Shown: positions 1 through 32,884 of the stretch, piece after piece
Layout: every line of letters starts with the position of its first letter
How positions within the stretch are numbered: the stretch's first letter is position 1
Virus record (IMG/VR): IMGVR_UViG_3300025311_000216
Coordinates: 1-32,884 of that record
Origin: a virus
DNA length: 32,884 nt
Direction: 5' to 3' (one strand)
The notes under the pieces: model-generated
Databases searched by the model: none
Told to the model about the DNA's origin: nothing
What the model saw: the letters and a program-made list of their open reading frames with translations, nothing else
Program-made: the position numbers and the translations under genes

Positions 1-72
1 TTGCTGACCCTGTTTTTGTTGCTGACCCTGTTTTTGTTGCTGACCCTGTTTTTGTTGCTGACCCTGTTTTTG
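1..72. repeat. 18-bp tandem repeat, four copies, at the window edge
   Basis: Four perfect copies of TTGCTGACCCTGTTTTTG. On the coding (minus) strand each encodes six residues (T-K-T-G-S-A) of the tail protein. The array may continue beyond the window. Copy-number changes would keep the frame because the unit is a multiple of three. Confidence 0.95.
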
Positions 73-1726
73 TTGCTACACCAGAACCCGTAAATGCCCC
101 TGTATATTTATAGGTACGGTCACAGCGGAGAGTATTAACATCTAAGAGATATGCCCCTCCGGTCATTATTACTTTTATATATATAGTTTGATTTGGGATG
201 GAATCAAAGGTGAGGGAGGGATAATATTCCCATGCAGAGGTGGCACTCTTCAAATAGGCAACCGTTACGAGCGTTGCATCATTAAAAGGGCCTGCCTTAA
301 TTTCAATAGTCCCATCTGAGGTAAAATATCCGATAAGGCTCAGATAGAGGTTGTATTGAAATTGAGATGACCCGGATGGGGGGTCATTAAAACCTACAAC
401 CAGTTTCCATTCACCATTCCCAATACTGGTATAATCATATATATATGCTGCATTTTGAGAGCCTTGAACTTGAGCTGTAGTGGACCCGGAGTCCGAATGA
501 GTAACACCTATCCCATCGCTTACCCCAATCAAATCTGACACCCCTATCCCATCGCTTACCTCAATCAAATCTGACACCCCTATCCCATCGCTTACCCCAA
601 TCAAATCTGATACACTTATTGTGTCATCAATCCCTATACCATCAATGACCGCTATAGTGTCACTAACTCCTATGGAATCAACTATCACAATTGCATCATT
701 TACACTAATCCCGTCACTTACCAGCATGTCTACTGCCTGACTAACTGTCACATATCCAGGGACGTTTATAACTGCCTTGCCACTATATTCAGATAGTTCA
801 TTCCCACTCTGCCCTGTGTATTTTGTGCAGATTGAGGTAATATTTATTTCTACATCTCCAACCCTTCCATATATATTACCTATAGTCTTTACTGGGTGGT
901 CGGCAAAGAGATAGACAAATTGTGTCTTCTTTTCCCAGACAACAGCACCTTTCAGGTGTGTTGCCGGTAATGTGGAGTTGTATCCCCGCGTGCAGCTTGT
1001 AATTGTATTTTCGGAGATTGTTGAGATATATATCTGCTCACCATCTATCTGAATAACCTTTCCTGATGAAAGTCTTGAACCGTCACTTACTGAAAAACTT
1101 GTAACTGAAGAATTTATATTGTTTGGTAAACTTGTCATTGCACCTGCATCTACAATATGTGCAGGACATTTTGTAACACTGCCATAGATTATGTTTTTAA
1201 TTTTACCGATATCATCGGGGTCAGCAGAGGGATAGGTAGATATATCAATCTTGCTGCCAACATATTTGTCTATTTTTATTACATTGTCTATTAATTGAAG
1301 TGTATACATTAATTCGTCTTCTTTTCTAAAATCAACGATATTTCCTACCCACATTTTTTGGGGTAGTATTTCATGGTAAAGTCCTAAAAAATAGAGATAT
1401 AATTCGCAATCTATTGTTTCAAGATTGTTTGAGGGATTCCAGAGTATTGATTCTAAATTTTGAATGTCATTGGGGTCATTTATGATTGTCAGCTCAAAAT
1501 CGGATATCTTTGAAGATGAAAGCTCTCCTGAAATGTCTTCATCTATTGTTCCCCAATCTTGCACCCATGATTTTGTGGTGATTCCGCCATCCCATCCAGC
1601 GACAGAAACCACCCTATCGGAGAGGTAGCGTGTCCCTGTCTGAAAAGGACATTTTAATATCCAGACAGGGGCAGCGCCAACCTTTTTGTTTTTTTCTCTT
1701 TCAAAATCAGATGAAAATGTTTTCAT
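1..1726 (-). CDS. Phage tail/baseplate structural protein, 3' end cut by the window
   Basis: The reading frame is open from an ATG at 1726 to the window edge (about 575 codons), so the C-terminus is missing. Its first codon overlaps the previous gene's stop (ATGA). It lies directly downstream of the tape measure, where distal tail and baseplate proteins are encoded. The first 350 residues look like a folded structural domain. They are followed by an aspartate/valine/isoleucine-rich stretch with three copies of a 12-residue unit (V-S-D-G-I-G-V-S-D-L-I-G), a second compact domain, and finally repeats of T-K-T-G-S-A that run off the edge. Low-complexity repeats of this kind are common in phage fibre and host-contact proteins. 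I do not recognise a catalytic motif. The tail role comes from position and repeat content. Confidence 0.75.
   Translation of the reverse strand, partial: MKTFSSDFEREKNKKVGAAPVWILKCPFQTGTRYLSDRVVSVAGWDGGITTKSWVQDWGTIDEDISGELSSSKISDFELTIINDPNDIQNLESILWNPSNNLETIDCELYLYFLGLYHEILPQKMWVGNIVDFRKEDELMYTLQLIDNVIKIDKYVGSKIDISTYPSADPDDIGKIKNIIYGSVTKCPAHIVDAGAMTSLPNNINSSVTSFSVSDGSRLSSGKVIQIDGEQIYISTISENTITSCTRGYNSTLPATHLKGAVVWEKKTQFVYLFADHPVKTIGNIYGRVGDVEINITSICTKYTGQSGNELSEYSGKAVINVPGYVTVSQAVDMLVSDGISVNDAIVIVDSIGVSDTIAVIDGIGIDDTISVSDLIGVSDGIGVSDLIEVSDGIGVSDLIGVSDGIGVTHSDSGSTTAQVQGSQNAAYIYDYTSIGNGEWKLVVGFNDPPSGSSQFQYNLYLSLIGYFTSDGTIEIKAGPFNDATLVTVAYLKSATSAWEYYPSLTFDSIPNQTIYIKVIMTGGAYLLDVNTLRCDRTYKYTGAFTGSGVATKTGSATKTGSATKTGSATKTGSA
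507..614. repeat. 36-bp tandem repeat, three copies, inside the tail gene
   Basis: Three consecutive near-identical 36-bp units, each encoding 12 residues rich in V, S, D, I and G. Degenerate units of the same flavour extend to about position 740. The unit is in frame, so expansion or contraction changes the length of the protein but not its frame. Confidence 0.9.
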
Positions 1727-20814: not shown

Positions 20815-21258
20815 TTACAGAACATTGTCATTCTGAGCCGAAGGCGAAGAATCCCTTTGTCTATTCATTTCCTTCAGCCTCTCCTTAATTGCCTTCATAA
20901 AAGTTACATTCAAAAATTTGTAATGCGTTGGTGTTTTCAAGCGAGAATTGATAAAGGCATTCAGGGGCCTTTCAAAACTCTCACCCCATCTCTCCCTCGC
21001 CGCATCCGTGAGCTCCTCCAATAACCCCTTTCTTGAAGGCTCATATTGTTTTTGATTGCCGACTGTCTTTCTAAACCCCAACTCCCTAAACCTCTTTAAT
21101 ATCTTCAAGAACCCTGAATATGTCAGGTCTTTAGAGGTGTTCACTTTTGCGGTATTCCAGAGGATGTCCCTGTATATCTCATCCGTCAAATTCAAGTTGT
21201 TTTTTGCAACATGAATAAGCGTCTTCTGTTTATTGTTTATTGTCTTTCTCTGTGCCAT
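20815..21258 (-). CDS. gemA: GemA-like regulatory protein (Mu gp16, DUF1018)
   Basis: A 147-residue protein with K-Q-K-T-L-I-H-V-A-K-N-N-L-N-L near residue 11 and Y-R-D-I-L-W-N at 29, the standard GemA opening. The C-terminal W-G-E-S-F-E-R-P-L-N-A-F-I region is also typical. In Mu, GemA modulates host gene expression and replication. It precedes Mor, as in Mu. No Shine-Dalgarno is seen before the ATG at 21258. Residues I-N-N-K-Q are encoded by two AATAAAC heptamers, and the last dozen residues by a dispersed repeat. Confidence 0.88.
   Translation of the reverse strand: MAQRKTINNKQKTLIHVAKNNLNLTDEIYRDILWNTAKVNTSKDLTYSGFLKILKRFRELGFRKTVGNQKQYEPSRKGLLEELTDAARERWGESFERPLNAFINSRLKTPTHYKFLNVTFMKAIKERLKEMNRQRDSSPSAQNDNVL
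20826..20853. repeat. Dispersed repeat, 28 bases, copy 2
   Basis: Exact copy of the sequence at 19271-19298. It encodes the C-terminal tail of the GemA-like protein and lies just before the Mor start. Confidence 0.9.
21228..21241. repeat. Heptanucleotide repeat GTTTATT x2 in the GemA-like gene
   Basis: Two perfect units within the first ten codons of the GemA-like gene, followed by a diverged unit. Confidence 0.75.
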
Positions 21259-22837: not shown

Positions 22838-24076
22838 TCATACTGACAACACAACCGCATCTGTAACCGCCTTCTCCCCCATCTCTGTTGCAAGATTCAT
22901 TGCCTTAGCACAATAATTGTTCACCAATAGCGGATATGCATGTGAAATGTTTTTATTGTTTCTATCCGTGGATGTAAGCCTTTTTGAGAGTGCATCAAAC
23001 GCCTCATCGGTAAAGATTTTCGTCACATCAACGCCAACTCTCTTAAATTTTAAAGCGAGATAGTCTTTTATATGCCCGTTCAACCCTTTGATTTCTGCAA
23101 TCTGCACCCTCCTGATTACCTCCCGCATATCAACATGCTGCGCCTCATTGAATAAGTGTTTTAGCTCCGTCTGCCCAACAAGGATAATCCCTAATAACTT
23201 TTTATACCCGTCCTCAAGTTCATAGAATCGCTTAAGATACTTGAGTGTGTGCGTATTCATGTCATGCGCCTCTTCAATTATCAGCACCGACCTGTAACCC
23301 TGTTTAGACCTCTCAAGCAGTAATTGTTGAACCTGCCTTGTCTTTTGCTCAAGCCTTATTTTTGCCTTCTGATCCGAAATATCCATAATCACCGCATCGC
23401 AGATTGATGCCGCTGTGAGCCTTGTCTTATCAATCATCTGCGGATATATGACAAGGACGTCTCCATCTTTCTTTAACTGCTCTACAACCTTTCTTCTCAT
23501 CACCGATTTTCCGCTGCCAACTTCCCCGATAACGGCTAAGAATCCGCCATGTCTTGCCGCATCTATCATTGCGGCTTCTATGTAGCGATGCTCATCGCTC
23601 ATGTAAATATCCGAGTCCTTTTGTATATCGTCAACAAAAGGACTCCTGAAAATTTTGAAATGCTTCATTGCCTCATGTGTAATCATCTCCACCTCCCATG
23701 ATATTGTTATTAGATTAGGATCAGCCGATACCAATGCAGGTGTTCTCCTTGTGAGAGCCATCCTTTTTCCGCTGCCCTTAGGATGAACCCTTCTTAAATC
23801 CTTCCCCAGAGGCTCCCATATGTCCTCCACCCTAAGACCCTTTTGTATCAGCCATTTCTGTGCCTCTTGATTTTTTCCCACAATTTCCTCTATAATCTTC
23901 TTGAAGTTTGGACATCTCGTAGGGATGTAGCCTCGATTAATTGCCAGATTAATTGTTGGTCTCTTAAGCCCTACAGCTTTTGCAAGCTCGCCCTGCGGGA
24001 TGTCACAGTCTAAAACAAGCCCTTTTAAGACGAGCGGTTTAAACTTAAGTTGATATGCCATTGCTCTATTTGTCAT
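22838..24076 (-). CDS. MuB-type AAA ATPase, target DNA activator
   Basis: A 412-residue protein with AAGGAGG nine bases before the ATG. The N-terminal part has an HTH (about 25-50, with L-A-K-A-V-G-L-K-R-P-T-I-N). The ATPase domain has Walker A G-E-V-G-S-G-K-S (184-191), Walker B V-L-I-I-E-E-A (264-270) and sensor L-V-G-Q-T-E (299-304). This is the ExeA/MuB group. In Mu, B binds target DNA and delivers it to the transposase. It follows the transposase gene in the usual order. Confidence 0.93.
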   Translation of the reverse strand: MTNRAMAYQLKFKPLVLKGLVLDCDIPQGELAKAVGLKRPTINLAINRGYIPTRCPNFKKIIEEIVGKNQEAQKWLIQKGLRVEDIWEPLGKDLRRVHPKGSGKRMALTRRTPALVSADPNLITISWEVEMITHEAMKHFKIFRSPFVDDIQKDSDIYMSDEHRYIEAAMIDAARHGGFLAVIGEVGSGKSVMRRKVVEQLKKDGDVLVIYPQMIDKTRLTAASICDAVIMDISDQKAKIRLEQKTRQVQQLLLERSKQGYRSVLIIEEAHDMNTHTLKYLKRFYELEDGYKKLLGIILVGQTELKHLFNEAQHVDMREVIRRVQIAEIKGLNGHIKDYLALKFKRVGVDVTKIFTDEAFDALSKRLTSTDRNNKNISHAYPLLVNNYCAKAMNLATEMGEKAVTDAVVLSV

Positions 24077-24223: not shown

Positions 24224-26038
24224 TCACCCCACAGCCTTTTTCACATCTTCACTCCCCGTTGCCCACTGTCCTCTATTTTGCATCTCTCTTATCACCTCCT
24301 CCGCCTTTGATATTTCAATTGAGTCCCCATACTCCGCCCTCAATTGCTGATTAATCTCAGGTGTTATCGCCCTAACCTCCTGAATCAATCGTTTTAAAAA
24401 TTCCGTAAATGAAATTCGTCTTGATATAATCCCTCTGTCAATCTGTTGTGCATCTGACTGAATGGCTTTGTTCATAGGCATTTCAGGCTGTTTAATTTCA
24501 AGCTCAGTCCCTTTTCTGTTTATGAATGCTACATTTCCAACCTTCTCCGCCTGATGCCCAAAGACCTGCAGCGGTGATTCATACCCCAGAGGCGGCGCAA
24601 CTGCAACCCTCTTATCCCCTGTCCCCTTCCATTTAAGCCCCCATCCCTCTGCTATCTTCTCAAAATCCTTCTTTGCGTTCTGTGTTTCAGTATTCTTTAT
24701 TGCCTTGTATTCTCCATACTCCACCCCAATCGTAAGCCTTCCGAACTGGTCTTTTGGTATTGGCTGCAGCAGCCAGACATATCCGTTGTAATGAGCCTCC
24801 ACTGCGGGATATTCGTAAGGGTGCCTGACAATCTTTACATACTGATTTGCAGCCATAGTATCGGGAACCTGGTATGAGTTCCCGTCAAGCCTGATAATCC
24901 TTGCCCCATCTGCCCTGCATTTTTTTACAGGCTCCCTTATTAACAGCCTATACACTTTTTCTTCCGGACATAATCGCAACTGCTCTGTTGTTATCATTGA
25001 CCACAGGGCAGAGCGGGGAGCAACATCCCTCATTTTTTTAACCGCATTAAACATGATGCACCAGTCCAATACCCAGCAATTCAGCTCTTCAAGATTTGAG
25101 GGCCTTCTAAATTTAAGCCTTGCATCAAAACGATTAATTAACTTCATCAATCCCTCTACCGCCCCTTTTGCACGCGGGTTGCCGGGGAGATGGGTATTAA
25201 TCTCTATTCTTAATGCATCAAAGAGTCCCTGATTTGCCTTAGCTGCCATAATGGATCCTCTGTCTGCAACGAGCATAAAAGGGACTCCGTGAAAGTGATA
25301 TTTTCCCTTCTTTGCCTTTTTTGCCTCGGCACTTCCATTGAATACCTTTGCAATAAGCTCATCCTTTGGACGCATCGCCTCTAACATGAATTGTGAGCCG
25401 TGTATTGCAAGCTCGCCTGAGGCATAAAAATACCGGACATAAAAGGCCCCGGTGCAATGGTCAACCGCTACATACCTGAGCAATTCCTTTTTAATTGTCT
25501 TTGCTGTCTGGACAATCTGATTCTTGCCAAGCTCCAGATTCGCATCCCTCTCCCCCATGCCTTTATTATCAAGAAAATATTGAAAACAGTTTGTAACGTC
25601 AAACTGCCAGACATGGTTTGGATGTTTGCTTAAGAGAATTTGATGAGGGGATGGCTCTAATAAATGTTTTGCTGAAATTCGTTTGTCCCGTAGAAGCTCA
25701 AGGACACGGCTTGTAGAAACCTCACCCGAATATAATCCTGAATCGGCTAAAATCTCTACCGCATCACAGGCAGGGAGGGGAATCTCATTTGATTTTCTTC
25801 GTGAGGAATAAAGAAGCGTGGCAACACTTCTTAATGTGTCATCAGATACCTTTGTCTGCCCCTTCGTTGCCTTCTCTTTCCGCCACCTCAGCCCCTTCTT
25901 CCCCGCCCATCTATATATAGTCTGAGGGGATACACCATAGTGAGCTGCAAGCCCCTGAACCTTCTCTTTAACATCCCCTTCTTTGATATCACGCAGACTG
26001 TTATATATATATTCAATGACGGTTTCGGATGCTTTCAT
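24224..26038 (-). CDS. MuA-type DDE transposase
   Basis: A 604-residue protein. There is an N-terminal HTH at about 28-50 (Y-G-V-S-P-Q-T-I-Y-R-W) and a catalytic core with D147 (V-W-Q-F-D-V-T-N), D259 (L-V-A-D-R-G-S) and E295 (G-A-V-E-G-L-M-K) with the integrase-like P-G-N-P-R-A-K-G before it. The C-terminal region (about 540-604) is charged, as expected for the part that contacts MuB. It catalyses insertion and replicative transposition of the phage. The start overlaps the upstream stop (ATGA). Q-N-R-G-Q-W near the end resembles the repeat-encoded segments of other genes. Confidence 0.95.
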   Translation of the reverse strand: MKASETVIEYIYNSLRDIKEGDVKEKVQGLAAHYGVSPQTIYRWAGKKGLRWRKEKATKGQTKVSDDTLRSVATLLYSSRRKSNEIPLPACDAVEILADSGLYSGEVSTSRVLELLRDKRISAKHLLEPSPHQILLSKHPNHVWQFDVTNCFQYFLDNKGMGERDANLELGKNQIVQTAKTIKKELLRYVAVDHCTGAFYVRYFYASGELAIHGSQFMLEAMRPKDELIAKVFNGSAEAKKAKKGKYHFHGVPFMLVADRGSIMAAKANQGLFDALRIEINTHLPGNPRAKGAVEGLMKLINRFDARLKFRRPSNLEELNCWVLDWCIMFNAVKKMRDVAPRSALWSMITTEQLRLCPEEKVYRLLIREPVKKCRADGARIIRLDGNSYQVPDTMAANQYVKIVRHPYEYPAVEAHYNGYVWLLQPIPKDQFGRLTIGVEYGEYKAIKNTETQNAKKDFEKIAEGWGLKWKGTGDKRVAVAPPLGYESPLQVFGHQAEKVGNVAFINRKGTELEIKQPEMPMNKAIQSDAQQIDRGIISRRISFTEFLKRLIQEVRAITPEINQQLRAEYGDSIEISKAEEVIREMQNRGQWATGSEDVKKAVG

Positions 26039-27511: not shown

Positions 27512-27841
27512 CTACAACAAACTCAATTGCCCTTCCCCTTCCGTGAATTTTCCCTCTCCCCTTGTGGGAGAGGGCAGGGTGAGGGGGATAACCCCTTCCT
27601 CTGTCCCCTGCTTACAGCATGCAGGGGCAGGCTTCTGCAACTGATACTCATACCTCCCCCTGCCTACCGGTCTGCACTCAATCACAAACCCATTCTCCCT
27701 CAGTTCATCAACCGCTGTGCTTACCGCCATAATCTCCGCCCCATGCACAATATCCCTCGTAGTATGAGGCATCCCATCTAATAAAAATTTATATAACCTC
27801 TGCAGTCTCGGCGAATTTTCTAATTGCGCATAATGAATCAT
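27512..27841 (-). CDS. Small early DNA-binding-like protein with repeat-derived tail
   Basis: A 109-residue protein. Residues 10-65 look like a winged helix (L-Y-K-F-L-L-D-G-M-P-H-T-T-R-D-I, then A-V-D-E-L-R-E-N-G-F). The C-terminus (I-P-L-T-L-P-S-P-T-R-G-E-G-K-F) is the translation of a dispersed hairpin repeat that has a second copy at 28574. No Shine-Dalgarno is seen. An octanucleotide repeat lies just upstream. Probably an early regulator. Not recognised further. Confidence 0.7.
   Translation of the reverse strand: MIHYAQLENSPRLQRLYKFLLDGMPHTTRDIVHGAEIMAVSTAVDELRENGFVIECRPVGRGRYEYQLQKPAPACCKQGTEEGVIPLTLPSPTRGEGKFTEGEGQLSLL
27552..27597. repeat. 46-bp direct repeat with 9-bp hairpin, copy 1
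   Basis: Contains CCCTCTCCC-CTTGT-GGGAGAGGG. It is identical over 46 bases to 28574-28619. This copy forms the 3' end of the coding sequence of the 109-residue protein. Confidence 0.92.
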
Positions 27842-27874: not shown

Positions 27875-28414
27875 TTATCCTTCCTTCCCCTTGTCATTGC
27901 GAGGCAAAGCCGAAGCAATCTCTCCTTTGCTTTCTATCTCCTTCAAAAATATCTCCCGCTTGTGCCTCTCCGTCCTTGCCTGTTTTTCCGTCTCAAGCAA
28001 TCTCTGTATCTCCGCCCTCAAAGCCTCTGGTCCCGGCAGGGCAAATAACCCCGACTTCCGTGAGAGAACCTCAAACACCCTCCTCTGCCCCGTTGCTAAT
28101 ATAAAAGACGGCAGAAATTGACAGGGGAACCTGTGTTTGTCGTGTGCCTCCGCCGTCCAGTTGTAGAGCATGGATGCGGTGATTTCCTGCCCTGCAAGCT
28201 CGGACATGCGGGCAGCTACTTCATATCGCGATAAGAGTTTACCGGTATGGTCTTTTGCATGTTTAATGTCTTCAGATACGGCACCCCTGAGCTCAGAATC
28301 AATATCAAGGCTGCCATTGGGAGGGTTTTCAGACTGGCGGGATAGCTCCTCTGCCTTTTTGAGCCAATCAAAAATATTTGTCTGCCTATTATCTTTTTTG
28401 GTGGGACTTGACAT
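27875..28414 (-). CDS. Early-region phage protein of unknown function
   Basis: A 179-residue soluble protein. The middle (about 60-115) has an HTH-like segment A-A-R-M-S-E-L-A-G-Q-E-I-T-A-S-M-L-Y-N-W and C-Q-F-L-P-S-F-I-L-A-T-G. Proteins of this kind occur at this place in other Mu-like prophages, without a known function. DNA binding is possible. No Shine-Dalgarno is visible. The C-terminus (G-E-I-A-S-A-L-P-R-N-D) is encoded by a dispersed repeat (27892-27921). It is the first leftward gene after the gap with the opposite-strand membrane protein. Confidence 0.72.
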   Translation of the reverse strand: MSSPTKKDNRQTNIFDWLKKAEELSRQSENPPNGSLDIDSELRGAVSEDIKHAKDHTGKLLSRYEVAARMSELAGQEITASMLYNWTAEAHDKHRFPCQFLPSFILATGQRRVFEVLSRKSGLFALPGPEALRAEIQRLLETEKQARTERHKREIFLKEIESKGEIASALPRNDKGKEG

Positions 28415-28518: not shown

Positions 28519-28564
28519 GGGATTCAGGCTCCCACGCCCTGGTAAGCTTTGAGAGCCTAATCCC
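28519..28564. repeat. Imperfect hairpin in the gap before the opposite-strand gene
   Basis: GGGATT-C-AGGCTC (28519-28531) pairs with GAGCCTAATCCC (28553-28564) apart from one bulged base. The rest of this 245-base gap holds a diverged copy of the TGTCATTCTGAG repeat near 28480 and the 46-bp repeat at 28574. I see no gene. Confidence 0.65.
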
Positions 28565-28573
28565 GTAAATTTC

Positions 28574-28619
28574 CCCTCTCCCCTTGTGGGAGAGGGCAGG
28601 GTGAGGGGGATAACCCCTT
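28574..28619. repeat. 46-bp direct repeat with 9-bp hairpin, copy 2
   Basis: Identical to 27552-27597. Here it is intergenic, about 40 bases upstream of the rightward membrane protein gene. Confidence 0.92.
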
Positions 28620-28659
28620 TCCCTTTATTCCCGCCCTTTTGAGGCAGGAGGCTTGAAAG

Positions 28660-29041: not shown

Positions 29042-29245
29042 CTATGCCACCCTCTCCTCTGCCTCATCCCACAATTCCTCAACGCTCAAACCCAGAGCAT
29101 TGGCTATAGCTTCCCTAACCCTCTTTGACTTTCCAAATCCACCTATTACAACAGATACAGTCACACGATTAACCTTTATTTTTTTTGCTATTGATGTCTG
29201 CGTAATCCCTTTTTCTACGAGCATAGCCTTAATTTTTCTATTCAT
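29042..29245 (-). CDS. Small HTH DNA-binding protein (Ner/Cro-like)
   Basis: A 67-residue protein with GGGAG before the ATG at 29245. The HTH covers about residues 13-45 (K-G-I-T-Q-T-S-I-A-K-K-I-K-V-N-R-V-T-V-S-V-V). The remaining L-G-L-S-V-E-E-L-W is typical of XRE-type proteins of phages. Mu Ner is a comparably small early negative regulator in the same position. It begins one base after the stop of the preceding early gene. Confidence 0.83.
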   Translation of the reverse strand: MNRKIKAMLVEKGITQTSIAKKIKVNRVTVSVVIGGFGKSKRVREAIANALGLSVEELWDEAEERVA

Positions 29246-29638
29246 TTATTTCTCCCTATTCAATATCAACCTAATCCCCTCACGGGTTATGCCGAACCTG
29301 TCGCCAATGGCTTGCAGGGTGTCCCCTTTTTCTCTTAACTCTTTTATTACCTGTGTAGTATCATGGGGAAGTCTTTTCAGTTTGTGTTTATTAACTTCCT
29401 TTCTTCTTACACCCTTAATCCAAAGGATTTTAAAGACATGGGCAGTGGTTAGACTAAACTTTTCTGCTATTTTTTCTACACTTACCCCGTCTAAAAATGA
29501 GAAAGCAATTTTTGTATTTCTCTCTTCCTTATTCGTAAAACGCCTTAAACCTAAACCGATATTAACTCTTAATTCTTTACCGAAAAGCCTTATTTTAAAG
29601 GCTTTTGATAAATTTTTTATTACTGTTTTTTTGCCCAT
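29246..29638 (-). CDS. First early gene: protein with two helix-turn-helix segments
   Basis: A 130-residue basic protein. The first HTH is near 49-76 (D-G-V-S-V-E-K-I-A-E-K-F-S-L-T-T-A-H-V-F-K-I), the second near 104-128 (K-G-D-T-L-Q-A-I-G-D-R-F-G-I-T-R-E-G-I-R), the latter like sigma-70 region 4. It is the first gene behind the early promoter. GAAGG lies nine bases upstream of the ATG. Likely a DNA-binding regulator of the early/lysogenic switch, unnamed. Confidence 0.78.
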   Translation of the reverse strand: MGKKTVIKNLSKAFKIRLFGKELRVNIGLGLRRFTNKEERNTKIAFSFLDGVSVEKIAEKFSLTTAHVFKILWIKGVRRKEVNKHKLKRLPHDTTQVIKELREKGDTLQAIGDRFGITREGIRLILNREK

Positions 29639-29642
29639 AAAT

Positions 29643-29658
29643 ATAAACCTTCGTTTAT
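29643..29658. promoter_or_regulatory. Dyad ATAAAC-CTTC-GTTTAT near the early start site
   Basis: Perfect six-base arms with four-base spacer, located just downstream of the predicted early transcription start (about 29660). Together with dyads at 29673-29687 and 29703-29717 it forms a possible three-site operator region. Confidence 0.6.
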
Positions 29659-29666
29659 GTAGGGAT

Positions 29667-29695
29667 AATATAGTTTAAATCTTAAACCTTGTCAA
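29667..29695 (-). promoter_or_regulatory. Early promoter (TTGACA, 17 bp, TATATT)
   Basis: On the minus strand TTGACA (29690-29695) and TATATT (29667-29672) are separated by 17 bases. The first early gene starts about 30 bases downstream. This is the best sigma-70 promoter in the window. Confidence 0.85.
29673..29687. promoter_or_regulatory. Operator candidate GTTTAA-ATC-TTAAAC in the early promoter spacer
   Basis: A perfect 15-bp dyad that occupies the spacer of the early promoter. A repressor bound here would block RNA polymerase. The repressor gene starts about 20 bases to its right. Confidence 0.75.
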
Positions 29696-29702
29696 GGGAA
29701 AA

Positions 29703-29717
29703 GTTTAATGACTAAAC
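29703..29717. promoter_or_regulatory. Dyad GTTTA-ATGAC-TAAAC over the repressor start codon
   Basis: Five-base perfect arms around the start codon of the repressor gene. It has the same half-site as the operator in the early promoter, which suggests autoregulation. Confidence 0.55.
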
Positions 29718-30151
29718 AGCTACCTTTTAGTGAAAAAGTTCGCAGTATTAGAAAATCAAGAAACCTCACGATGGAGGCTTTTGGAGAGATTATTGGCGTC
29801 TCAAAGGGGACAGTAAGTCTTTGGGAGAGCGGTAAAAATATACCTCCCAAAACCACAATAAGTTTGATTAATAAACTTTTTGGCGAAGGGGAAATAGGGC
29901 GGGGAAAAACCGCTATATATAATGAAGGGGGAGTTCAAGAAATGGAGTTAAGGGAGTCGCAAGTATCTTATGAGGCTATCTCCAAATCCCCCCTCTCCTC
30001 CCTTCATAAAAAACTTGAACATATATATAAGGAAGGAACTCGTGAAGAAAGGGCATGGGTTAGGGGAGTTATAGACGAAGCCTATGATGAAACTAAAAAA
30101 AAGGAAACCCTGCCAGGGAAGGAGGTGATAGAACAAAAGAAAGTTGGTTAG
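29708..30151 (+). CDS. XRE-family phage repressor
   Basis: A 147-residue protein with AAGGG upstream. The HTH is at about 8-60: V-R-S-I-R-K-S-R-N-L-T-M-E-A-F-G-E-I-I-G-V-S-K-G-T-V and L-W-E-S-G-K-N-I-P-P. The C-terminal part is helical and charged, with no LexA-type peptidase Ser/Lys motif, so induction is not by self-cleavage. Its divergence from the early genes around dyads identifies it as the lysogeny repressor (Mu c analogue). It is more AT-rich than the late genes. Confidence 0.88.
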   Translation: MTKQLPFSEKVRSIRKSRNLTMEAFGEIIGVSKGTVSLWESGKNIPPKTTISLINKLFGEGEIGRGKTAIYNEGGVQEMELRESQVSYEAISKSPLSSLHKKLEHIYKEGTREERAWVRGVIDEAYDETKKKETLPGKEVIEQKKVG

Positions 30152-30280: not shown

Positions 30281-30601
30281 ATGGAATCATTTATGGGAAT
30301 TTTCATGCTTGTTGGTCTTATTCTAATAATCTTTCTTTACAATGTTTATAAATGTTATACAGAAGAGGAATGGATTTGCCTAAATTGCGGCTTTAGAGGG
30401 AATAGAAAAAAGATTACAAAAGGGAGTAGTTTAATTGAATTAATTCTTTGGATCTGTTTAATTGTTCCGGGCTTGATATATTCAATATGGAGGATTACAA
30501 CAAAATTTTTTGCTTGCCCTAAATGCAATACTCCAAATATGATTCCCATAGATTCTCCGAAAGGAAAAGAATTGTTACAAAAATATGGTATCAAAGAATA
30601 A
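30281..30601 (+). CDS. Membrane protein with zinc-ribbon cysteine pairs
   Basis: A 106-residue protein from the ATG at 30281, with AGGAGG at good spacing (a TTG at 30263 would start inside that site). One membrane segment (5-22, I-F-M-L-V-G-L-I-L-I-I-F-L), then C-L-N-C (34-37), a second hydrophobic segment (about 53-72) and C-P-K-C (79-82). The two CxxC pairs probably bind zinc. No family is recognised. Its end overlaps the nuclease gene by 17 bases, which links it functionally to the two nucleases. AT-rich codon use suggests recent acquisition. Confidence 0.72.
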   Translation: MESFMGIFMLVGLILIIFLYNVYKCYTEEEWICLNCGFRGNRKKITKGSSLIELILWICLIVPGLIYSIWRITTKFFACPKCNTPNMIPIDSPKGKELLQKYGIKE

Positions 30602-31004
30602 TTTAATTTTTCTCTTTTTTTTTATCCTCTGCATCCGTGTGATTGATGGAGACACAATTGTCCTTGAGAGTGGCGAAAAGGTAAGGTTAATTGGTGTTGA
30701 TACTCCTGAACTCCATCACCCTAAAAAACCTGTCCAATATTACGCTAAAGAGGCTAAAGAATTTACAAAAAGTCTTGTTGAGGGGAAAGATGTTCGGCTC
30801 AAATATGACTGGCAAAGGAAAGATAAATATGGACGCGCCCTTGCTTATATCTATCTTAAAGATGGAACCTTCTTAAATATAGAGATTATCAAACAAGGTT
30901 ATGGATTTGCTTATACAAAGTTTCCCTTTAAATATATGGAAGATTTTAGACGCTATGAACGAGAAGCACGAGAAAATAAAAAAGGTCTGTGGGGTGAGAA
31001 GTAA
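30585..31004 (+). CDS. Staphylococcal-nuclease-like (thermonuclease) protein with hydrophobic N-terminus
   Basis: A 139-residue SNase-fold nuclease. The key residues are visible: D21 and D23 (V-I-D-G-D-T) for calcium, R34 (V-R-L-I-G-V), D39 and E42 (D-T-P-E), and R84 (Y-G-R-A). The C-terminal N-K-K-G-L-W is typical. The first 17 residues include L-I-F-L-F-F-F-I-L-C, which could be a signal or membrane anchor, though it abuts the first strand unusually closely. Such nucleases cut DNA and RNA, usually outside the cytoplasm. It overlaps the zinc-ribbon gene. Confidence 0.85.
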   Translation: MVSKNNLIFLFFFILCIRVIDGDTIVLESGEKVRLIGVDTPELHHPKKPVQYYAKEAKEFTKSLVEGKDVRLKYDWQRKDKYGRALAYIYLKDGTFLNIEIIKQGYGFAYTKFPFKYMEDFRRYEREARENKKGLWGEK

Positions 31005-31101
31005 GTTAAATAAAAACCTCTTGAAGTCGTCCATGATAGGGTATATTAAAGATGCTTGTAAGGTTTTGGTCTCAAAAATCTTTTAACAGAGGAGGGATAA
31101 G

Positions 31102-32502
31102 ATGGCTATTTTTATTGTTCCAGTGATTGGTGTTGTAGTAATTGTTCTGTTGATAATTCAACTTATCAATAAGATAAAAATAAATGCAGAATTGAAGAAA
31201 TCACTGACCAAGTATAAGGATATTATTGATATTGACTCGGAAGTTTCTAAAAGGAAGGCTGACTTTGAAATATTAGAAAGTAAACTTTCCGAATTAGAAA
31301 AGGGATATAAGGAAAAGGATTTTGCTCTAAATCAAGACTATCTACAACATAAAGCGATTTATGAAAACCTTCTAAAAGAGGTATCACTGCTTGAAGAAAA
31401 CCTCGAAAATATTTCGTATGGACTTTATAAGCCACACTATGATTTTAAAACATCTGAAGAATATAAACAGAGATTGGAAAATATCATCAATAATGAAAAA
31501 CAAATGATTAGGAACGAATCAGCTATTAATTGCTTTATTAAATGGGAGGTTAGTGGTAGCAGGGTAGAAGGAGCTAAAATGACAAAGCAGTATTCTAAGT
31601 TAATGCTTCGCTCATTCAATGGAGAATGTGATGCTGCTGTTGCTAAAGTTAGATGGAATAATATAGGTAATATGGAAGCTCGAATTGAAAAGGCATATGA
31701 ATCTATAAATAAATTGGGGGCTACACATCAAATTATAATTACCAAAGATTATTTTGATTTAAAACTGCAGGAACTGCAACTTGAGTTTGAGCTTCAAGAG
31801 AAACTTTATCAAGAAAAAGAGGAACAGAGAAAAATTAAAGAACAGATGAGAGAAGAAGAAAAAGCACAACGAGACATTGAAAAAGCCAGAAAGGAAGCCG
31901 AGGAAGATGAGGAAAAAAATGAAAAGGCACTACAAAAAGCCAAAGCAGAAATAGATAAAGTAAAGGGGCAAGAATTAGAACTATTGACCGAGAAGATTAA
32001 GCTATTAGAAGAAAATCTTCAAAAGGCACATGAACTAAAAGAAAGAGCAATTTCACGAGCACAACTTACAAAATCTGGATATGTTTATATTATCTCTAAT
32101 ATTGGCTCATTTGGTGATACTATTTATAAGGTTGGGATGACAAGACGATTAGAACCAATGGATAGAATAGATGAACTTGGGGATGCTTCTGTGCCATTTG
32201 ATTTTGATGTGCATGGTATGATTTACTCCAAAAATGCACCAGAATTGGAAAATATAATACATAAAAAGTTGGACTTAAAACGAGTTAATCTTGTAAATCT
32301 ACGGGCAGAGTTTTTTAATACAACGATTGATGAAATTAAGATATTTATGAATGAATTAAATTTAAACATACAACTAACAAAAATAGCTGAAGCAAAAGAA
32401 TATAGAAAAACACTATCACTTAGAGAAGCTCAAGGTGGAGCAACTCTAAAAATAGAGAAAGAAATAAAAGAAAATACCAAATTTCCAGATACATTAATTT
32501 AG
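31102..32502 (+). CDS. SNIPE-like membrane-anchored DUF4041/GIY-YIG nuclease
   Basis: A 466-residue protein with GGAGGG at good spacing before its ATG. The order is: membrane segment (about 3-24), coiled coil (30-105), DUF4041 domain (about 106-225, with Y-G-L-Y-K-P-H-Y near 106 and the strand W-N-N-I-G-N at 185), a highly charged helix (225-320), then a T5orf172-type GIY-YIG domain (326-415). The nuclease motifs are Y-V-Y-I-I (327-331), Y-K-V-G (342-345), R348/R349, R355, H371, E381 or E383, and E-F-F (403-405). E. coli SNIPE has this layout and cuts phage DNA at the membrane during injection. Function here is inferred from the architecture. Confidence 0.88.
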   Translation: MAIFIVPVIGVVVIVLLIIQLINKIKINAELKKSLTKYKDIIDIDSEVSKRKADFEILESKLSELEKGYKEKDFALNQDYLQHKAIYENLLKEVSLLEENLENISYGLYKPHYDFKTSEEYKQRLENIINNEKQMIRNESAINCFIKWEVSGSRVEGAKMTKQYSKLMLRSFNGECDAAVAKVRWNNIGNMEARIEKAYESINKLGATHQIIITKDYFDLKLQELQLEFELQEKLYQEKEEQRKIKEQMREEEKAQRDIEKARKEAEEDEEKNEKALQKAKAEIDKVKGQELELLTEKIKLLEENLQKAHELKERAISRAQLTKSGYVYIISNIGSFGDTIYKVGMTRRLEPMDRIDELGDASVPFDFDVHGMIYSKNAPELENIIHKKLDLKRVNLVNLRAEFFNTTIDEIKIFMNELNLNIQLTKIAEAKEYRKTLSLREAQGGATLKIEKEIKENTKFPDTLI

Positions 32503-32528
32503 GCAAGCGGACAAAAATATTTACTCTA

Positions 32529-32555
32529 TAGTAATATACTAATAGTAATATACTA
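32529..32555. repeat. Two tandem dyads TAGTAATATACTA
   Basis: Two identical 13-base dyads (32529-32541 and 32543-32555), period 14, right after the SNIPE-like gene. They could be a protein-binding site. Confidence 0.85.
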
Positions 32556-32699
32556 TAAAGTAGGTGTCGTTGATGGGGAGGGGTAGGTCTGGGATAAAAA
32601 TTTTAAAAAGGGTTTAATTTTTAAGGGTGTCAAAAATCCGTCAAAATAGGGGGGTTGTTTAGTAAAACCTTTCAAATTAAGTTTGAAAAAGCCTCTTTT

Positions 32700-32730
32700 T
32701 TAAACCATCCTTAAACCATTCTTAAACCAT
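32700..32730 (+). repeat. Three TTAAACCAT repeats at 11-bp spacing
   Basis: Copies at 32700, 32711 and 32722, one helical turn apart. The motif TTAAACC also lies at the early operator (29682-29688). Candidate binding sites for transposase or repressor. Confidence 0.8.
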
Positions 32731-32795
32731 CGTAACCTACTTATCACATTTTTCAGCCTATCCCCATCTCAATCCCCCACAATGAGAGAAAGTGC

Positions 32796-32825
32796 TTGAC
32801 ATTATTCATGTAGGGAGAGTATATT
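32796..32825 (+). promoter_or_regulatory. Rightward promoter candidate (TTGACA, 18 bp, TATATT)
   Basis: TTGACA at 32796-32801 and TATATT at 32820-32825. The spacer contains ATGTAGGGA, which also precedes AT-rich -10-like sequences at 29657 and, with one inserted base, at 31033. It would transcribe off the window edge. Confidence 0.6.
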
Positions 32826-32837
32826 TTACCATAAATT

Positions 32838-32855
32838 CCCCCTTAACAAAGGGGG
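32838..32855. repeat. Dispersed GC-rich hairpin repeat, copy 3
   Basis: CCCCCTT-AACA-AAGGGGG, as at 20465. Another related copy lies at 27417-27436. Copies are found inside and between phage genes and at the window end. Confidence 0.85.
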
Positions 32856-32884
32856 TAAGGGGGTTGTTGTCTTCTACCTCCCCT

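Follow-up and report, generated by a model that had tools for sequence, protein, structure and literature searches.

The nuclease SNIPE (PD-lambda-1) acts on phage DNA at the moment of entry into the cell. E. coli SNIPE is constitutively located in the inner membrane and makes contact with the tape measure protein and with host proteins used for entry; DNA is cleaved during injection and resident prophage DNA is not cut, and the protein works alone (PMC13190303). Since the resident prophage is spared, a prophage-borne copy would not harm the induction of its own phage, which fits the locus described here. SNIPE as prophage cargo is already known. It is present in 34 records of the phage collection, and in the P2-like phages 813R9 and KP12 as well as in EJ-1, PMBT9, Poushou, PLE3, Javan633, and MPV1 it follows the repressor and in most cases precedes the integrase. 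The SNIPE of ES18 (gp19) is annotated as a possible moron and lies 5' of the tape measure gene. Other integrated elements carry DNases that inhibit natural transformation, namely, CJIE1, a Mu-like prophage of Campylobacter jejuni, and Vibrio ICEs, with the nucleases IdeA and SxnA (PMC7291426, PMC11472951, PMC7693049). T4 Imm and P22 SieA, both made by phages and located in the inner membrane, affect the entry of DNA (PMC11436027). No report of a prophage staphylococcal-nuclease-type protein (SNase) acting in exclusion was found in the literature searched, whose coverage excludes most subscription journals.

The DNA analyzed here, called the window, is one whole IMG/VR record of 32,884 bases. 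Besides the leftward features listed here along with the repressor side of the record, the leftward genes encode a portal, a terminase, a protease, the major head protein, and a tape measure protein.

20815-21258, leftward: GemA (match at 3.5e-8)
22838-24076, leftward: AAA partner of the transposase (phrog_296, 5e-53)
24224-26038, leftward: Mu-type transposase (phrog_310, 2e-57)
27875-28414 and 29042-29638, leftward: CII-, Cro-, and sigma-like regulators
29654-29695, no strand assigned: early promoter region separating the repressor from the lytic genes; contains the element ATGTAGGGATAATATA (29657-29672)
29708-30151, plus strand: HTH_3 (Cro/CI-type) repressor (PF01381, 6e-11), heading the rightward lysogeny-side block and divergent from the leftward lytic genes
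30281-30601, plus strand: gene 1, zinc-ribbon membrane protein of 106 aa (N-terminal TM, CxxC, hydrophobic hairpin, CxxC)
30585-31004, plus strand: gene 2, SNase of 139 aa (PF00565, 3.3e-29)
31102-32502, plus strand: gene 3, SNIPE (PD-lambda-1) nuclease of 466 aa (PADLOC PD-Lambda-1, phrog_1847, Pfam)
32503-32884, no strand assigned: non-coding right end of the record, with TTAAACCAT three times and a second operator-like copy

Because a transposase, its AAA partner, GemA, head genes, and a tape measure gene are present, the phage is by gene content of the Mu-like transposable type, with a tail of the tape-measure kind. The record begins inside an 18-nt tandem repeat (TTGCTGACCCTGTTTTTG, window 1-80), and it therefore probably lacks the tail-fibre end. 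A 62-nt GC-rich hairpin element (CCCTCTCCCCTTGTGGGAGAGGG...) occurs twice in the early region (27541-27602 and 28563-28624), in copies that are 94% identical; its 35-nt core was found once, in 1 of the 77 genomes of the phylum searched.

The early promoter region holds a leftward promoter-like site (TTGACA-17-TATATT) at 29695-29667. The element ATGTAGGGANANTATA has only two mismatch-free copies, one at the lytic early promoter (29657-29672) and the other at 32808-32823, within a promoter-like site that points outward, close to the record's right end. With up to two mismatches allowed, there are 4 matches to this operator-like element versus 0.4 expected, and the two exact copies are possible candidates for repressor operators. 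At the right end, TTAAACCAT is present in three copies with 11-bp spacing (32700-32730), and a palindrome-like sequence, ATAGTAATATACTA, is duplicated at 32528-32555. Both repeats are possible candidates for transposase sites by the left end of a Mu-like genome. We infer that the right end of the record is probably close to the left, repressor-side end of the phage. The stretch 3' of the repressor in Mu-like phages presumably runs, as in Mu, up to this left end.

The three genes are on the repressor strand, opposite to the lytic genes. The preliminary description had placed three rightward genes on the lysogeny side, with a 17-base overlap between the first two, and the open reading frames agree on both counts. 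This side is commonly the place of phage exclusion genes. The repressor and gene 1 are separated by ~130 nt and genes 2 and 3 by 97 nt, and these gaps are roomy enough for further promoters. A terminator scan found no terminator-like site between the repressor and gene 1, and the idea of a terminator in this gap was also rejected by RNA folding, which gave a structure no better than that of shuffled sequences (z 0.26). Ribosome-binding sites are strong before gene 1 (GAGGAGG) and gene 3 (GAGGAGGG), and the site for gene 2, inside gene 1, is weak. Gene 1 most likely starts at the ATG at 30281, after GAGGAGG, rather than at an upstream TTG. It is plausible that the three genes form a single operon and plausible also that they are coexpressed with the repressor.

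Gene 3 is clearly a SNIPE on every sequence feature, as the preliminary description had proposed. Two PADLOC PD-Lambda-1 models match it (2e-161 and 6e-157), as does phrog_1847 (2e-145), and Pfam recognizes DUF4041 (PF13250, 7e-25, residues 166 to 221), T5orf172 (4e-14), and MUG113 (1e-15). The order of its parts is a TM segment at residues ~1 to 22, a coiled coil, DUF4041, a second coiled coil, and a GIY-YIG domain at residues 326 to 417. Aligned to the 500-residue PD-lambda-1 protein of PhiR26_1, E383 corresponds to the catalytic E414, and this residue is invariant in alignment A1. The hydropathy of residues 1 to 19 is 3.38, which predicts the membrane segment expected of a SNIPE. The closest relative (84% identical) is chromosomal and comes from a groundwater MAG labelled Nitrospinota (L103:9121-11186). 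That SNIPE gene is preceded by DUF4258-like and YgiT-type zinc-finger genes, named by eye, which are a possible toxin-antitoxin pair. A related-phage contig with CII and Cro homologues (L098) carries, on the same side, a SNIPE that is 71% identical to gene 3, and the cargo before it differs, consisting of zinc-containing proteins and a DUF4236 protein. A search of viral contigs with the gene 3 protein alone returned no close relatives.

We surveyed the best 80 SNIPE loci from 84,980 genomes, with flanks of up to 10 kb, using tblastn, motif, and HMM searches. Detection of SNases relied on motif and HMM; tblastn missed diverged copies such as L083. By these methods, none of the 80 loci has an SNase within 10 kb, and none was found near the 13 annotated phage SNIPEs (L004-L007 and L193-L201). 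Only a few of the surveyed SNIPE loci have a zinc-ribbon membrane protein nearby, and the closest SNIPEs, those with 84% and 71% identity, have neither partner beside them. Within one phylum, relatives of the SNase and of the zinc-ribbon protein are located elsewhere. The preliminary description had named the absence of the trio from every other genome as a result that would refute its layered barrier. Within the searches made the trio indeed recurs in no other genome (0/80 best genome loci and 0/13 phage loci), and on these data we rejected a conserved defence system. A dedicated three-protein system is not supported. Of the layered barrier proposed with it, the two nuclease families and their lysogeny-side position are real; the three-gene unit is not supported, and the tie of gene 2 to the membrane is doubtful.

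Gene 2 is a member of the SNase family with its fold and catalytic residues intact, as judged from its sequence and its structural model, and here too the preliminary description was right. The catalytic and calcium-binding set is complete (D21, R34, D39, E42, and R84, based on a PDB alignment at 2e-23 and on conserved columns). The AF2 model (pLDDT 84.5) leads Foldseek to staphylococcal nuclease with an E value of 2e-11. The start of the protein is atypical. The hydrophobic stretch has ~11 residues and continues into strand beta1, and the signal-cleavage region is absent. Thus, MVSKNNLIFLFFFIL passes directly into CIRVIDGDT, whereas relatives have a signal peptide, a cleavage region, and a full beta1. 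Because its hydrophobic start overlaps beta1 and no signal-cleavage region is present, membrane association of gene 2 is doubtful. N-terminal hydrophobic segments had been claimed for all three proteins. This holds for genes 1 and 3 (mean hydropathies of 2.5 and 3.4) but not for gene 2. Gene 2 would have either a very short anchor or an export signal that was lost by deletion, and any model of a layered membrane barrier is weakest at this start. As the signal-cleavage region found in relatives is missing, the protein may be cytoplasmic or decaying. In its strongest form, this means that a deletion took the signal-cleavage region and the start of beta1 and left a remnant with no role in a barrier. 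Compared to seven phage relatives, gene 2 lacks ~10 residues of the segment that links the hydrophobic core to DGDT, and this points in the same direction, as do the AF2 model, in which beta1 comprises residues 14 to 21 and residues 1 to 13 are outside the fold at low confidence, and the weak ribosome-binding site. However, the reading frame is open throughout, no catalytic residue is missing, and an SNase fold is retained in the structural model. We consider a remnant rather unlikely. With the gene 2 protein alone as query, no close SNase relatives were found in viral contigs.

Gene 1 encodes a split zinc ribbon (CLNC ... CPKC, with the zinc knuckles WICLNCG and ACPKC) that encloses a hydrophobic hairpin, LIELILWICLIVPGLIYSIWR, and has an additional N-terminal TM segment. 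Its AF2 model is weak (pLDDT 64; helices at residues 2 to 25, 50 to 61, and 65 to 76), too weak for a fold search. Searches of Pfam, PHROGs, PADLOC, and NCBIfam gave no match above the cut-off, the best weak one being Pmp3 at 2e-4, and assignment to a known exclusion family was rejected on this result. Relatives of the core are present in 11 of the 77 genomes of one phylum and in two viral contigs, and there were none among the phage or plasmid records searched. The gene 1 family is widespread. The relatives in the viral contigs (L002:8007-8369 and L003:22-348) are 43 to 49% identical and are encoded directly 5' of the tape measure gene. This site is close to the position of the SNIPE moron in ES18.

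A weaker form of the proposed arrangement does survive. In a set of phages gathered from relatives of the transposase and of the nucleases, partly by following earlier observations, a nuclease of the exported kind adjoins the repressor in seven phages other than the one in the window. They are mostly Mu-like, the nuclease is an SNase in all but one, and in 3 of the seven a zinc-ribbon membrane protein is next to it. What recurs is thus the exported nuclease, sometimes with a zinc-ribbon membrane protein, and not the trio with SNIPE. The gene orders in these phages, and in one further phage with a similar pair in its tail-gene region, are as follows.

L242: repressor followed by a signal-peptide SNase and a zinc-ribbon membrane protein
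L243: zinc-ribbon membrane protein between an S24 repressor and an SNase, its gene and that of the SNase overlapping or 1 nt apart depending on start choice
L244/L245 and L246: repressor, membrane or secreted protein, SNase, lipoprotein
L324: HTH protein followed by an SNase that carries an Excalibur domain
L266: S24 repressor, then a one-TM protein and an anchored SNase (55% identity to gene 2)
L235:2250-3098: repressor, zinc-ribbon/TM2 protein, exported PLD nuclease, with 0 nt between
L279:4929-5610: exported SNase and 68-aa zinc-ribbon membrane protein with a 17-nt overlap, in the tail-gene region

L235 is a close relative by transposase (61%), and its layout is the same as in the window, built from unrelated parts. 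In sequence, gene 2 and the SNases of L242-L246 are distant, which suggests separate acquisition. SNases with N-terminal hydrophobic membrane segments also lie behind tail genes in L275:4539-5597 and L307:4545-5594, which may be another cargo slot. A zinc-ribbon membrane neighbour was found at none of 33 chromosomal SNase loci. On the repressor side, zinc-ribbon membrane proteins occur at about 16 of 64 Mu-like loci regardless of any nuclease, and the pairing could therefore be due to chance. A Fisher test comparing zinc-ribbon neighbours of exported and other viral SNases gave p = 0.003, a value that carries no weight, as the set was pre-selected and includes the window and L242/L243. Another zinc-ribbon membrane family, starting with GxNNRVAxRDYYE, is commonly encoded on the repressor side in other Mu-like phages (L050:6681-7112, L057, L059, L061, L093, and others), and its L050 member had no match in the phage collection.

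These results bear on the idea of a dedicated, multilayer DNA-entry barrier in which the zinc-ribbon protein would be the membrane hub for the SNase on the outside and SNIPE on the inside. The 17-nt overlap of genes 1 and 2, the common strand, and the membrane segments are consistent with such a barrier, and so is the occurrence of a zinc-ribbon membrane protein by an exported nuclease in L242, L243, L279, and L235, whose sequences are unrelated. However, the trio was absent elsewhere in our searches, the nearest SNIPEs lack both partners, and E. coli SNIPE acts alone (PMC13190303). Moreover, with zinc ribbons at a quarter of Mu-like repressor sides (~16/64), adjacency may be fortuitous, and we regard this explanation as quite improbable. 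Slightly less so, yet still unlikely, is a two-gene DNA-entry exclusion module of the Mu-like repressor slot. In such a module, the zinc-ribbon membrane protein would anchor or license an exported nuclease, the fold of the nuclease (SNase or PLD) and the partner would be exchangeable, and in the window it would have been joined with SNIPE, giving a nuclease on the outside and the inside of the inner membrane.

The target of the SNase may also be different from that of SNIPE. It may be an exported prophage DNase directed against natural transformation, which would shield the prophage from removal by recombination, with SNIPE alone handling phages. The DNases of CJIE1 and of the Vibrio ICEs provide a precedent for this role, and it agrees with the recurrence of exported nucleases, SNase or PLD, at this position in Mu-like phages. 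On the other hand, the export signal of gene 2 is atypical, and its sequence does not separate transforming DNA from phage DNA as the target. We consider this a real possibility, at somewhat short of even chances.

The explanation that we favour, and hold to be probable, is that of exchangeable, lysogeny-expressed cargo in the slot that extends from the repressor to the left end, namely, a stand-alone SNIPE together with a zinc-ribbon protein and an SNase that arrived separately. As strand and position suggest, the dormant prophage would express the three genes from the repressor side. SNIPE would reside in the inner membrane with DUF4041 and GIY-YIG facing the cytoplasm and, by analogy with its E. 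coli homologue, would, when a siphophage infects, detect the injection apparatus (the tape measure protein) and cut the phage DNA on entry. Blocking of superinfecting phages is the most likely role of this protein. Given its intact catalytic residues, the SNase would cleave DNA without sequence preference. If it behaves like its exported slot relatives, although export of this copy is doubtful, it would most likely act on the outer face of the inner membrane and destroy incoming DNA, from phages or from transformation, before entry into the cytoplasm. Degradation of incoming DNA of either kind outside the cytoplasm is moderately likely. As their genes overlap, one may speculate that the zinc-ribbon protein holds the SNase at the membrane. 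In this reading, the three proteins do not form one obligatory system.

Compared to the known SNIPE (PD-lambda-1; Saxton et al. 2026, PMC13190303), gene 3 has the same N-terminal TM segment, DUF4041, coiled coils, GIY-YIG domain, and catalytic glutamate (E414, here E383). It shares 48% identity with the PD-lambda-1 copy of phage PhiR26_1 over 79% of the protein. Its N-terminal region is different, and other phage or host partners are therefore expected. Its setting differs as well, with a zinc-ribbon gene and an SNase gene before it and a Mu-like phage as carrier. The SNIPEs of temperate phages (ES18 gp19, EJ-1 ORF3, and those of P2-like 813R9 and KP12) are likewise prophage genes, in most cases placed immediately behind the repressor and in lysogeny orientation, but they have no SNase-type nuclease alongside. 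The CJIE1 DNase, IdeA, and SxnA resemble gene 2 in being DNases on integrated elements, and CJIE1, like the phage in the window, is Mu-like. Those enzymes are exported, whereas gene 2 belongs to the SNase family and has an incomplete export signal; the comparison is one of published descriptions. The SNases of L242, L243, L244/L245, L246, L324, and L266 occupy the same slot on the repressor strand, and in L243 and L266 the order of repressor, membrane protein, and SNase is that of the window. In contrast to the window, no SNIPE was seen alongside in these phages, their SNases have a full signal peptide or anchor, and the partners are unrelated in sequence; identity to gene 2 falls from 55% (L266) to ~30% among these slot relatives. 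Gene 1 has no family match to T4 Imm or P22 SieA. A newly characterized SNIPE beside a second, unrelated nuclease in a Mu-like phage illustrates how prophages may stack DNA-entry barriers. The exported nuclease that recurs by Mu-like repressors is a candidate for a widespread trait that blocks superinfection or transformation, and such a trait would escape searches based on defence islands. Set against the known systems, the locus holds a genuine SNIPE in a new setting, together with a probably separate nuclease and a zinc-ribbon protein.
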